Shown here: piece after piece, positions 19,601-51,600 of the stretch
Numbering within the stretch: position 1 is the stretch's first letter
How the letters are laid out: every line of letters begins with the position of its first letter
Assembly: GCF_032362555.1 (NCBI RefSeq)
Contig: NC_083519.1
Span: forward strand, 1,257,501 to 1,321,500
Reading direction: 5' to 3'
DNA length: 64,000 bases
Origin: Amyelois transitella
Taxonomy: Eukaryota > Arthropoda > Insecta > Lepidoptera > Pyralidae
The notes under the pieces: model-generated
Told to the model about the DNA's origin: nothing
The model's database searches: none
The model's input: only the letters and a program-made list of their open reading frames with translations
Translations under genes and position numbers: made by a program

Positions 19601-22600
19601 AGATTGTTGTTGATTATGAGTATTTAATTGTAAACACAACTGTCTTTGATATCACTTAATTTCAATGAACATCTTAGAAGATATTGGTTTGCACAAACAA
19701 ACACACAAACGCACAACCTCTCACCCTAAACGCATATATACGGTCTCCGTTCGGTCGCGGGTAATGATGTGGGCCAAGTCGTCGCCAAGTCGCATAACAA
19801 TTAGCAGCTATAATTGATAAAGCCGAGGAGAATGTTTGCAAAAATAAATATGATGCCCAAAATAACTATTCCACGCGGACGAAGTCGCGGGCACATCTAG
19901 TTATTTATAAAAAGAAAGAAAAAAGATGACTACAAACCAAAATTTAATTTATAAATTGTATACCTGTCACTATTTGAATCTCAATACTATCATTAAGCCA
20001 AACAGCTGAAAAGTATGTATGTATTTTTTAAAAATCTTCTTATTTATTTAGTATTTTAGGCAGTAAAATTAAGTGGGCATTAAATATGCCTCTTTCCCGG
20101 AGGTGTAGGCAGAACCTACATCCTTCCATTTGTGACCAACACACTGTGTCGTTTTGAAATTATTTAATTTTTTTTATCCCGTTACGATACGTCGTTCACT
20201 GCGTAATACTTAGCCTAATTACCCTTTGTATATGAACAAGGACTAACGAGGCATGACTTAAGACCTTCCATCCTAATCAACTAGTACCACCATACTATGA
20301 CACGCGCGATGCCGTTTATATCGCGCGAAAAACTATCGCCGTCCCGTTTCACGTGATGATAAAAAGTGAAACTGTGATAGTTTACCGCGCGACAAACTAT
20401 CACTGTCCCTGTCTGATAAAAACGGCGTTGCTCGTGCCTTACTTTATTAATGAATGTACATTACTTCGAAAATAGTCATTGGTTCATGGCCGAGATGGGA
20501 TTCGAACCTGTGCCTTTTTGCGCCACACTCATTTTAACCACCGATTCGACCACCTCCGCGCTCAAAATTAATATTTTTATTTCAGGCAAATCTCTGTGCT
20601 ACCAACTGCCTGCCGTGTTGACGCCCGGAGTCACAATCGTGATATCGCCGCTCAAGTCTCTCATCTTGGATCAAGTCAACAAGCTTCTGTCGCTTGATGT
20701 GAGTTGGTAATTTTCATGTGATTCGGATACGATTCTTGTTGAAACCAGTGTAGAATAAGTTTAGCAGACTTTGTTGACTGAAAATTACTTTATGTTATGA
20801 CTTATTGATTCTGTGATTTATCATCTGTTTTATTAAATCAAACTTTGGTTTGGATTTTAGATGTCTGTCCATATTCTTACATATAATAAAAAGTATGATA
20901 AAGCTTACATATATATTCAATCATATTTATTAATGTAGACAATGTGCATTCGTTTATGATTTAAGAGTTCTATATTTGTAAATTGACGTACGGTGAAAAT
21001 GCTGAAGTGTAGTTTGTTTCGCCGCTTCTTCTACACATGCGCTTTGGAAGTCGTAGTTTTGACTTCAATAAGTGATACCTTGTATCAAATTTTGAAAATG
21101 ATCAATTCTATTCTACTGATTGATGTCAGTAATAAAAAAATAATATTATTAATATATAGCAAAAAAACGATATGGAGAATCTGTATTTATTTATAATTAC
21201 TACTGATGATTGGGCAGGTTAATTCCTCCTTACAGAGGAAAAGTGCCAATAATCACAACACTCCAAGGGTATGTTCATCAGTGACAGTGGTTTCTGAGAG
21301 CATATCATTTTATGTACAGATACCAGCCGCTCATCTCTCAGGCGACGTCTCTCTCTCAGCCTGTGACGAAGTCTACCACAAGCTATCGATGAGGGAGCCA
21401 CTTCTGAAGCTGCTGTACGTGACCCCGGAGAAGATCAGCAGCTCAGCCAAGTTCCAAAGCATGCTGGACTCGCTCTACTCTAGGGACAAGATCGCAAGGT
21501 AACCGTTACTTTTTTTCTTGGGAAAACTGTGTGAAACCTGTACCTTGAAGCAATTGGATGTTGGATGTGTAAATATGTGCCGTGTGGTTCCCAGCACCAA
21601 TATAAAAAAAGAATAGGACCACTCCATCTCTTTCCCATGGATGTTGTAAAAGGCGACTAAGGGATAGGCTTAAAAACTTGGGTTTCTTCTTTTAGGCGAT
21701 GGGCTAGCAACCTGTCACTATTTGAATCTCAATTCTTTCATTAAGCCAAATAGCTGAACGTGGCTATTCAGTCTTTTCAAGACAGTTGGCTCTGTCTACC
21801 CCGCAAGGGATATAGACGTGACCATATGTATCAAATATGGGTTAAGTTTCTTAGCAAAGGTGCGGAGGGCAGACGGAAGTCGACTCACCAAATCCAGGAT
21901 CATAATTATAGGCGCACGCCCGGCTTCTCTCCAGAAGGTGAGGATGTAAGGCAGTTAGGAAGAAGACTAACTGCTTCTAAAGGGCCATATTTACATTTGT
22001 TTCCTTTTATACAAGGTTCGTGATAGACGAGGCGCACTGCGTGTCGCAATGGGGCCACGACTTCCGGCCGGACTACAAGCGGCTGTTCATACTGCGCGAG
22101 CGCTTCCCCGCCGCGCCGCTCATGGCGCTCACCGCCACCGCCGCGCCGCGCGTGCGCCTCGACGTCCTGCACCAGCTGCAGGTCAGTGTGCGGGCGGCAG
22201 CAGCTGCAGGGCAGTGTGTGCGGGCGGCACCAGCTGCAGGGCAGTGTGTGCGGGCGGCACCAGCTGCAGGGCAGTGTGTGCGGGCGGCACCAGCTGCAGG
22301 GCAGTGTGTGCGGGCGGCACCAGCTGCAGGGCAGTGTGTGCGGGCGGCACCAGCTGCAGGGCAGTGTGTGCGGGCGGCACCAGCTGCAGGGCAGTGTGTG
22401 CGGGCGGCACCAGCTGCAGGGCAGTGTGTGCGGGCGGCACCAGCTGCAGGGCAGTGTGTGCGGGCGGCACCAGCTGCAGGGCAGTGTGTGCGGGCACCAG
22501 CTGCAGGTCAGTGTGCGGGCGGCACTAGCTGCAGGGCAGTGTGTGCGGGCGGCACCAGCTGCAGGGCAGTGTGTGCGGGCGGCACCAGCTGCAGGGCAGT

Positions 22601-48600: not shown

Positions 48601-51600
48601 TTGTAACAGAAGTCGGCGGCCTGCTTGTAGTAGCGGACGAGGTTGCCGTGCACGGGCGGCGTGGCGCAGAACACGATGTCGGGACACAGGTTGTAGCGGC
48701 CGGTCTCGCAGAAGTCACGGCAGAAGCTTTAGTCAATATAACACTCACTTGTAACAGAAGTCGGCGGCCTGCTTGTAGTAGCGGACGAGGTTGCCGTGCA
48801 CGGGCGGCGTGGCGCAGAACACGATGTCGGGACACAGGTTGTAGCGGCCGGTCTTGCAGAAGTCGCAGTAACGGCACGGCACGCCTGGCTCGATGGCTAC
48901 GCGGTCACCGACCTTCAAGTGCTTCACCTTGGATCCTGTCTGGAAATTAAGTAGGCGTTTCTCGTAGGTTCTCATTGTGTTTCTCAGTTATTATTCTCCC
49001 TCAAGCACTCTGGTAAGAGTGCTTGAGGTTGAGTGCTTGAGTGATTTACTTTTTACCAACACCAGTGGTAACTGGTGTTGGTAAAAAGTAAATCCAGTGC
49101 CTAAGTTCACGTTCTTTCGTTACTTTCTCACATCCCCATTACATTTTGTTATATTAGGCTCAATACTAGATAAACTTGCATGTCGTATAAAGATATTGGG
49201 AAACATTGTACTAAATGTTAATTCCATAAGGAAGAGACAGAGCCAACGGTCTCGAAAAAACTGAAAGACACGTTTAGACGTTCGGCTTTTTAATGAATTT
49301 AGATTCAAATACCTACAATAATTCCAAGAGCCGTCTGGTTCCTGGCACCAATAAAAAAGAATACGACCACTCCATCTCTTTACCATGGATGTCGTTAAAG
49401 CCCAAGGGATAGGCTAATAAACTTGGTATTCTTTCGGGCGATGTGCTAGCAACCTGTCACTATACGAATCTCAATTCTATCATTAAGACAAACAGGTGAA
49501 CGTGACCTATCAGTCTTTACAAGACTGTAGGCTCTGTCTACCCCACAAGGCATATGGACTTGATTATATGTTCTAAAATTAACAGGTTGCTAGCCCATAG
49601 CCTACGCGGTAAAGCAACATGTTTTCCTTTTCGCTTTGTTTTCCTCCATCACAAAAAGATTTTTAAAATGCCGGACGTGTCAGTCTTCGGGACTTTAAAT
49701 TTACTTACTTGTCCATTTGCACGTGCATTATCTGTTGATCTGCCTGTTTCGCTACACGACAGCAACCTCTTAGGTTGTTTATTATTTCAATTTAACATAA
49801 CAGTGCATGGGTTATCTACGGCTGTTATCGCTTGACCTTCATTCTATCGTTGTTGTTTTTATGTTAACTGTGTTGTCAAGTATTTGCCTACATAATATTC
49901 CTACAGTTTGTTATCTAACTACACCCCGGACATTGATTTCAGTTCTTATTTCTGAAGCTTACTAACAACAAGCTTTTACCCGCCCGCGTGAATTCAGATG
50001 ATTTATTAGCACCACCTGCCCCATTTTGCAGGTGCAGCAAGCAATAGTAATAGCAAGCAGTAACAAACTGCACTGCAGCATTTACTTCAATAACGTCAAC
50101 TTCACAATAATCCAAACTTCTAATTAGAAATTGACTATAGAATCCGGACGAGAGAATGCATATTTTATTATGAATTGCTTTTATTGATAGTTTTAATGCA
50201 AGTGAAGCCGCGGTGAATGGCTAGCTAGGAGGTAGGCTATTAGCATATCAAGCCTCCTGTCGATCACGTATGTAAAACAATCCGCTGTTATCACTGATAG
50301 CGTATCACCTTGCTTTTTGCTTTATAGCCCTCATAAACTAATCCACATGTTATGAAATTTTGTACCAAATAAGATAAGTAAATTGATTTTGTTTATCAAA
50401 TTAGGTACGATGTTGCGATGCGATCAAGAGCGAAATGTCTATTTACTAAACATGCGTTTATCTCACTCATCTCTGCGTGTTGCACCCGCCTCAGAAGTAA
50501 ACATGCGTTTATATACACATATTGCACATGCCGTGTGTTTCCGGGCACCAATAGGATACGAATAGTACCACTCCATCGTCCTTAGTCGCCCTTTACGACA
50601 TCCAAAATAAAAGTCTATGCTTTTAAATGTGGAATTTTTTTTTAGGCGACGGGCTAGCATTCTGTCCCTGTTTCGTAAAAGGCGACTAAGGGATAAGCTT
50701 ACAAACTTGAGATTCTTTTTTAGGCGATGGGCAAACAACCTGTCACTATTTGAATCTCAATTCTATCATTAAGCCAAACAGCTGAACGTGGCCCATCAGT
50801 CTTTAAGGCTGCTGGCTCTGTCTACCCCGCAAGGGATATAGACGTGATTATATACATATATGTATGTTTATTGCACAACAAGACATCACACCTCTGGTTT
50901 TGGGGGGTACAGTGGCGACATCTCTACGATAAAACTCACTAGGTACAATACATTTGCGGTGTTAGGTTATATTATTTATTCTTCCATGTTTAGTCGATTT
51001 TATTATTCTAACTTGACCGTTGAATTTCTGACTATCTCGACAGAGTAAAGTAGCTTCTCCATCCCTTCCTGTGGGGGCAACTTATAGGCAGTTGAGAAAG
51101 CAAGTAAGAGTATATATTTTATTATGAGACAGAAAAGGGGGTTGAATTTATATTCAGCTCGCTATAACAAGTTAAAAAAAGAACTATAATAAGTATAGCG
51201 TAAGTGTGCGAATTAGGTAAATTCTATTCATTCATTCTTATAATCACGTCTATATCCCTTGTAGAGACAGCCAGCGATCTTGAAAGACTGATAGGCCACG
51301 TTCAGCTGTTAGGTTGCAAGCCCATAACCTAAAAGAAAATCCCGAGTATATAAGCCTTTCCCTAAAAAATTAAAACAAATATAAATTATATTTAATTTAT
51401 TGAATAGGTAGGTAATTAAAATATTGCAAGTATTGCGAACACCTATTGTCAATTCTGTATTCTGAAAACTCTTGAAACATTTTGATTTAGCACATGTAAA
51501 TGTAATGGTACCTACCTACATTATTGCTGTAGTGAAGCAATTTGTACGGCCGGTTGGGTGTATTGATGAATCCAATTTATATTCATGCGACGATTACCAG

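Follow-up and report, generated by a model that had tools for sequence, protein, structure and literature searches.

The window analyzed here is a stretch of 64,000 nucleotides from the moth Amyelois transitella (contig C15, NC_083519.1, positions 1257501-1321500, in assembly GCF_032362555.1, which comprises 327 Mb in 33 contigs). It carries BLM (plus strand) and, on the minus strand, the sorbitol dehydrogenase genes SORD1 and SORD2. At seven exons of these genes, namely BLM exons 10, 13 and 14, SORD1 exon 6 and SORD2 exons 4, 5 and 6, exon sequence recurs in the following intron, and at six of the seven the 5′ splice site (donor) has been copied with it. These places had been reported in a first-pass annotation made from the sequence only, whose exon numbers we keep. 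Its description and coordinates of the copies agree with the arrays found by Tandem Repeats Finder (TRF) and with the donor probe described below. In window positions, the exons and their copies are as follows.

22016..22181, plus strand: BLM exon 10, first donor GTCAGT at 22182.
22169..23519, plus strand: BLM exon 10 array, 30 bp × 45.8 copies, each unit being the last 13 exon bases and ~17 intron bases (TRF).
24673..24865, plus strand: BLM exon 13, first donor GTGAGT at 24866.
24792..26090, plus strand: BLM exon 13 array, 95 bp × 13.7 copies (TRF).
26408..26604, plus strand: BLM exon 14, first donor GTTTGA, score 2.4.
26963..27041, plus strand: single copy of BLM exon 14, the last 51 exon bases and 28 intron bases, donor GTTAGT, score 6.2, 409 bp downstream.
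38997..39164, minus strand: SORD1 exon 6.
38707..39051, minus strand: SORD1 exon 6 donor array, 152 bp × 2.3 copies, diverged, copies 72-80% alike (TRF).
48749..48939, minus strand: SORD2 exon 4.
47903..48868, minus strand: SORD2 exon 4 array, 148 bp × 6.5 copies, with five extra intact donors GTGAGT (TRF).
47491..47675, minus strand: SORD2 exon 5.
47333..47499, minus strand: SORD2 exon 5 duplication, 84 bp × 2.0 copies, 9 exon bases and 75 intron bases, donor GTGAGG (TRF).
46865..47043, minus strand: SORD2 exon 6.
46804..46844, minus strand: SORD2 exon 6 copy, 41 bases of the inner piece 46952-46992, 93% alike, 148 bp away, without donor.

In every case in the window except SORD2 exon 6, the tail of the exon, the donor and the head of the intron repeat as one block, and at BLM exons 10 and 13, SORD1 exon 6 and SORD2 exons 4 and 5 a tandem repeat runs across the exon-intron border. 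At SORD2 exon 6 the exon is copied without its end, as had been reported; this 41-base copy is perhaps an unexpanded seed. We measured 11 cases, i.e., these seven and four from elsewhere in the genome (see below), using a probe that consists of exon tail and intron and reaches 160 bases back from the donor. Copy counts leave out 22 alignments that do not reach the donor, 11 of which are the probe's own intron head. Among the 83 copies whose alignment does reach it, 52 have GT at the later donor, and this rises to 38 of 38 when BLM exon 10, in which GG replaces GT in 31 of 45 intron copies, is excluded. The repeated unit is therefore the block of tail, donor and intron, and, as far as sequence goes, the units carry usable donors. 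The scores of the later donors lie within 1.4 of the first, except at BLM exon 14, where the later donor scores higher, and in the 31 GG copies of BLM exon 10. Whole exons have not been duplicated: at most 138 exon bases are copied, versus exon lengths of 135-201 nt. Nor are both splice sites of these introns derived from duplicated copies, since the acceptors in BLM and SORD2 lie beyond the arrays, at the next exons.

The copies differ in how they relate to the exon. For BLM exon 10, mutual identity among the 22 stretches compared is 91%, versus 83% to the exon; for BLM exon 13, nothing distinguishes the 12 intron copies compared from one another, although they differ from the exon. These are the only two arrays in which intron copies are closer to each other than to the exon; the six others measured (SORD1 exon 6, SORD2 exon 4, and the NKCC, PI4KB and two DEAD-box arrays introduced below) show no such difference, or the reverse. 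In several arrays the final copy is cut within exon sequence, namely in BLM exon 13, where it lacks the donor, in SORD2 exon 4 and in PI4KB. By eye, two types of copy alternate in SORD2 exon 4, the pattern to be expected if expansion went by two-unit blocks. That the arrays are artefacts, with repeats collapsed or expanded by sequencing errors, is scarcely credible, as the assembly has 33 contigs for 327 Mb, copies in several arrays carry copy-specific variants, and similar arrays lie on three chromosomes. The divergence of the SORD1 copies, too, is not expected from a recent duplication error.

The identities of BLM and SORD2 are backed by Pfam matches. Spliced at their first donors, both genes give proteins that align in one stretch to their human counterparts in a search of solved structures, with E-values of 1e-170 for BLM and 9.8e-127 for SORD. 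The BLM alignment has one-residue gaps at the exon joints, at the positions where an X was inserted. If the first donor is ignored, a stop codon appears ahead of the second donor's place in 8 of the 11 cases, a tally that counts SORD2 exon 6, whose copy has no donor, at its 148-bp spacing. The frame is open through that place only in BLM exons 10 and 13 and SORD2 exon 5. The BLM exon 13 unit is not a multiple of three and would shift the frame, and the first intact later donor of BLM exon 10 lies 325 nt downstream and is out of frame. Because of these stops and shifts, the first donor is predicted to be needed for the correct protein in nearly every case, and it is probably the one used in the cell, with the array skipped. 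The reported rule that the first copy always keeps the reading phase is true, albeit only by construction, the first copy being the exon itself.

These same data bear on whether the arrays are functional, with rows of donors tuning splicing through intronic U1 binding, or giving isoforms that are lengthened or targeted to nonsense-mediated mRNA decay. We consider this very improbable. The retention of GT in all copies outside BLM exon 10 would fit such a role, but the high identity between copies accounts for intact donors without selection, and the BLM exon 10 copies have mostly lost theirs. In 6 of the 11 donor-side cases the unit length is divisible by three, yet the chance of at least six is 0.12. 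The open frame through the second donor of SORD2 exon 5, and the CT tract and AG that accompany each copy of the second DEAD-box array, can likewise be read in its favor; the stops ahead of most second donors speak against it.

SORD1 is identified by its resemblance to SORD2 by eye and by ADH_N matches. Its exon 4 (window 40619-40811, minus strand) reads TAG in frame at the position of a SORD2 glutamate codon (VAV*PTQPC versus VAIEPGVPC), and the ADH_N family search also reports stops within this stretch. SORD1 may therefore be a pseudogene.

To extend the survey we added 200 kb surrounding the window, a 50-kb stretch of chromosome C8 whose position was fixed before viewing, and 14 kb that served two follow-ups. 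A gene finder written for this work returned five merged genes, of which only the exons were used; 121 of these were usable, with 41 in the window, 68 in its flanks and 12 on C8. Predicted exons with score ≥13 and length ≥40 nt, array copies included, were then compared with their own flanks (113 from the C15 block, 12 from C8). The following donor-side arrays lie outside the window.

C15:1201612-1201746, minus strand: SLC12/NKCC-like exon, 141 bp × 3.6 copies, donor GTTAGT.
C8:3005422-3005622, minus strand: PI4KB exon, 171 bp × 6.0 copies, in the pre-chosen 50-kb stretch.
C12: DEAD-box helicase gene, first array, 195-bp unit, eight domain matches including the exon.
C12:10294019-10295087: the same gene, second array, 177-bp unit × 6.1 copies.

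Thus, the event recurs across several genes and chromosomes. The DEAD-box gene came to light through Helicase_C matches that are mostly 195 bp apart, a route blind to the donor or acceptor side. The structure search names it a DEAD-box helicase and nothing finer; we take it to be DDX56-like. In its second array, the stretch between copies is a CT microsatellite that ends in AG, so that each copy looks like an exon complete with both splice sites, and just ~50 nt separates one from the next. Downstream of the gene, at C12:10291702-10292609, is a 92-bp array of ~10 copies that are ~80% alike.

Some flank matches were not counted. The exon at block positions 218298-218547 (C15:1375798-1376047) has a downstream match of 53 nt at 75%, which is a plausible old donor-side case. 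The 23-nt match of exon 188054-188265 is simple sequence, and the 58-nt match of exon 92149-92291 belongs to an exon that seems to end in a stop, making it 3′ flank. The long predicted exon 72514-75396 has an upstream match of 107 nt.

The Helicase_C family search, with 90 matches and 104 of 104 candidates scored, is the one that yielded the DEAD-box array. No further donor array was seen among matches to kinase (145; 130 of 534 candidates scored), P450 (93; 92 of 252), DEAD (51; 48 of 111), myosin (79; 65 of 125), chaperonin (57; 63 of 63) or AAA (21; 19 of 116) domains. Such searches can miss partial copies: ADH_N, with 9 matches and 13 of 13 candidates scored, matched SORD2 exon 4 once and none of its intron copies. 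The negatives are thus weak evidence of absence. Two candidates were discarded. Overlapping kinase matches at C4:7923162-7923874 are accompanied by no tandem repeat of period ≥20 in 4 kb, and four myosin matches to nearly equal positions at C12:10167187-10168555 were set aside as alternative exons, presumably the mutually exclusive exons of muscle myosin.

No array in the window spans an acceptor, versus 0.64 expected in the placement matched for G+C content (GC) that is described below; an absence that says little, because so few are expected. The first-pass annotation had seen no mirror case, in which the start of an exon is copied with its acceptor. This is right for the window, but such a case exists 16 kb outside it.

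C15:1337382-1337557, minus strand: RalGAP-beta exon, acceptor-side, 160 bp × 2.4 copies.

This exon is preceded by a copy of its acceptor and of bases 6-129 (86% alike), and by a further, partial copy (85%). The last copy, continuing into unique coding sequence and a GTGAGT donor, is apparently the true exon. Together with its neighbor it gave no match in the search of solved structures, and its status therefore rests on the gene model.

The first-pass annotation had also pointed to one intron array that ends at an acceptor, which is indeed present and copies no exon.

30550..31248, plus strand: 185-bp array, 3.8 copies, ending at a BLM acceptor (TRF).

We do not regard it as a mirror case, as its unit joins the final ~85 bp of a multicopy element ~458 bp long to ~100 bp of intron. 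The element lies in the BLM intron at window 30174-30632, and its tail is repeated in tandem with the adjoining intron up to the acceptor. At least 39 further long copies, at 93-96%, are all on other contigs; the genome-wide search for dispersed units covered the stretch 30000-30600, beside this array. Elsewhere in a BLM intron (window 27846-29715), units of a 26-bp minisatellite flank a LINE ORF1-like insertion that, by eye, seems to split them. The window also contains, again by eye, non-LTR element frames with reverse transcriptase (10720-14770, plus strand) and a 462-codon open frame resembling a Tc1/mariner-type transposase (55758-57146, minus strand).

To compare the arrays with chance placement, we used 24 arrays of period ≥25 in 314 kb, of which 8 are in the window. 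Predicted exons inside arrays were dropped. Where the gene finder had called array copies, at the NKCC exon and at the ends of BLM exons 10 and 13, coordinates were assigned manually. We prefer the placement of one unit per array, because an array grows after the event. When single units are placed at random, donors are spanned by 5 arrays in the window versus 0.52 expected, by 1 in the C15 flanks versus 0.24, and by 1 on C8 versus 0.11; the corresponding figures for acceptors are 0 versus 0.51, 1 versus 0.25 and 0 versus 0.10. Predicted exons are richer in GC than the rest (0.52 versus 0.35). With GC-matched placement, the 5 donors of the window compare with 0.71 expected (P 3.7e-5), while outside the window there are 2 donors versus 0.65 expected (P 0.13) and 1 acceptor versus 0.55. 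When arrays are instead placed at their whole length, the window has 5 donors versus 2.88 expected (P 0.08), the flanks 1 versus 0.64, and C8 1 versus 0.36. All P values for the window are post hoc, this feature being the reason for its choice. That is, donors in the window are hit above GC-matched chance, and those outside it are not significantly so. None of the 24 arrays lies wholly inside an exon scoring ≥13, versus 2.2 expected under GC matching. The sole array wholly inside a predicted exon, 30 bp in about two copies, is in a score-11 exon at C15:1245365-1245441.

These counts could be taken to mean that a mutational process targets donors, or the step from exon to intron, through co-transcriptional breaks, R-loops at GC-rich exon ends or template switching. 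For all 24 arrays, 7 span donors versus 1.36 expected with GC matching, and 1 spans an acceptor versus 1.19; moreover, several cases fall in the same gene, with three exons in BLM, three in SORD2 and two in the DEAD-box gene. However, five of the seven donor arrays are the original finding, the excess outside the window is the non-significant one given above, RalGAP-beta supplies a mirror case, and a bias in survival would yield an equal asymmetry. We therefore consider a donor-targeting process unlikely, and a surplus of donors over acceptors genome-wide is not a solid conclusion. It is similarly improbable that a minisatellite hot spot of the region or gene, unrelated to splicing, struck donors simply because these genes have dense, GC-rich exons. 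The window does hold 41 exons in 64 kb, versus 68 in its 200 kb of flanks and 12 in the 50 kb of C8, and the chaperonin matches, all candidates scored, contain no array, although that search can miss partial copies. Against it, GC-matched placement accounts for only 0.71 donor hits in the window, and similar arrays are found on C8 and C12.

The explanation we favor, and think probably correct, is that these are ordinary tandem duplications, expanded later in the manner of minisatellites by slippage or unequal exchange, which by chance covered the 3′ end of an exon, the donor and the start of the intron. First, a segment comprising the exon tail, the donor and some intron would be duplicated, or a piece of exon would be copied into the intron as a seed. 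Some arrays may have begun as such a small piece, expanded by exchange between it and the exon, an origin suggested by the arrays that end in a copy cut inside the exon and by the lone 41-base piece of SORD2 exon 6. Both duplication and expansion can be expected to start in GC-rich exon DNA. Multiplication of the unit would then bring the number of copies to 2-46; in some arrays it would act mainly on the copies in the intron, a pattern seen in BLM exons 10 and 13. The pre-mRNA would be spliced at the first donor, which is transcribed first and gives the shortest exon, so that the array is removed along with the intron and the protein stays as it was; the support for this step is that the first-donor junctions of BLM and SORD2 give the conserved protein. 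Finally, copies at acceptors or inside exons may damage the mRNA more often and be lost, leaving a surplus on the donor side.

The direction of the arrays would follow from this difference in harm. Provided that the first donor is used, an array on the donor side does no harm, whereas a copy within an exon alters the protein and one on the acceptor side presents the wrong acceptor first. The observed direction is therefore obtained without a donor-specific mutation process, and the recurrence of the same anatomy in the NKCC-like, PI4KB and DEAD-box genes, together with the mirror in RalGAP-beta, is as random duplication predicts. We prefer ordinary duplication in GC-rich exon ends, retained because the first donor wins, over mutation aimed at donors. 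The first-pass annotation had offered a local mutational process at exon/intron borders or a neutral outcome, reading the arrays as one kind of event. Exon 3′ ends are indeed struck repeatedly, also in other genes and on other chromosomes, but no border-specific process is needed; its alternative, that only donor-side copies survive, fits better and is not proven.

Several observations weigh against the explanation we favor. At BLM exon 14 the first donor (2.4) is weaker than its copy (6.2), and strength alone would pick the wrong one. In classical experiments with two competing donors, the upstream donor is reportedly not always favored. The excess of donor arrays outside the window does not reach significance. 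Lastly, affected exons number 7 of 41 in the window and 2 of 80 outside it (3 including the weak case), a disparity for which plain neutral duplication without a local hot spot fails to account, so that a regional hot spot is still needed; arrays of this kind seem to be far more numerous in certain genes or regions than elsewhere. A doubtful further possibility is that duplication at exon 3′ ends is unusually active in this lineage, with commitment to the first donor hiding the donor-side arrays and those at acceptors being purged. If so, spare donors, up to dozens in a row, would accumulate in genomes and lengthen introns stepwise, and the direction of the arrays would record a first-come rule of 5′ splice-site choice.

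Whatever their origin, near-identical competing donors in conserved genes amount to a natural in vivo experiment, repeated at many loci, on 5′ splice-site choice, i.e., on whether the first, the last or any donor is used. Should donor-side arrays far outnumber acceptor-side ones genome-wide, this would be independent evidence for rules based on the order of transcription or on exon length, as well as a route by which introns lengthen. There is also a warning for annotation, in that the gene finder called array copies as extra exons.

Among the matches listed in open-licence literature, judged by title and the start of the abstract, none describes such arrays in insects, and the passages of PMC11718197 contain nothing on donor duplication. 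A minisatellite that provides several splice donors was reported in 1995 in a human interferon-induced transcript (Nucleic Acids Res 23:1854, as cited in PMC2572611). The arrays described here have units of 30-409 bp with up to ~138 exon bases and affect six or more genes of a single genome, their extra donors being predicted from sequence. The human study, on a gene we take to be 6-16 (IFI6), reportedly dealt with a single gene and a short repeat. Human genes in segmental duplications also have internal tandem repeats at their exon-intron boundaries (PMC2812944); like the present arrays they are minisatellites at these borders that alter gene structure and can be spliced out. However, they vary between recent primate paralogs and can form novel introns, whereas the arrays of this genome make an existing intron longer and leave its acceptor outside the repeat. 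Gain of introns through tandem duplication (PMC4974935), described for Drosophila in PMC2891723, resembles our cases in that exon sequence with a donor motif is duplicated and splicing hides the extra copy. It requires a site in the duplicated exon to serve as acceptor and donor of the new intron; here the acceptor is the gene's own, downstream. Mutually exclusive tandem exons are likewise neighboring copies of exon sequence in one gene, but they are whole exons, and the exon start and acceptor are not copied here, except in the ambiguous second DEAD-box array. Taken together, the principle is known, from human precedents and single donor-bearing repeats; what is new is that the units are exon tails, that many genes are affected, and that the arrays have a testable direction.

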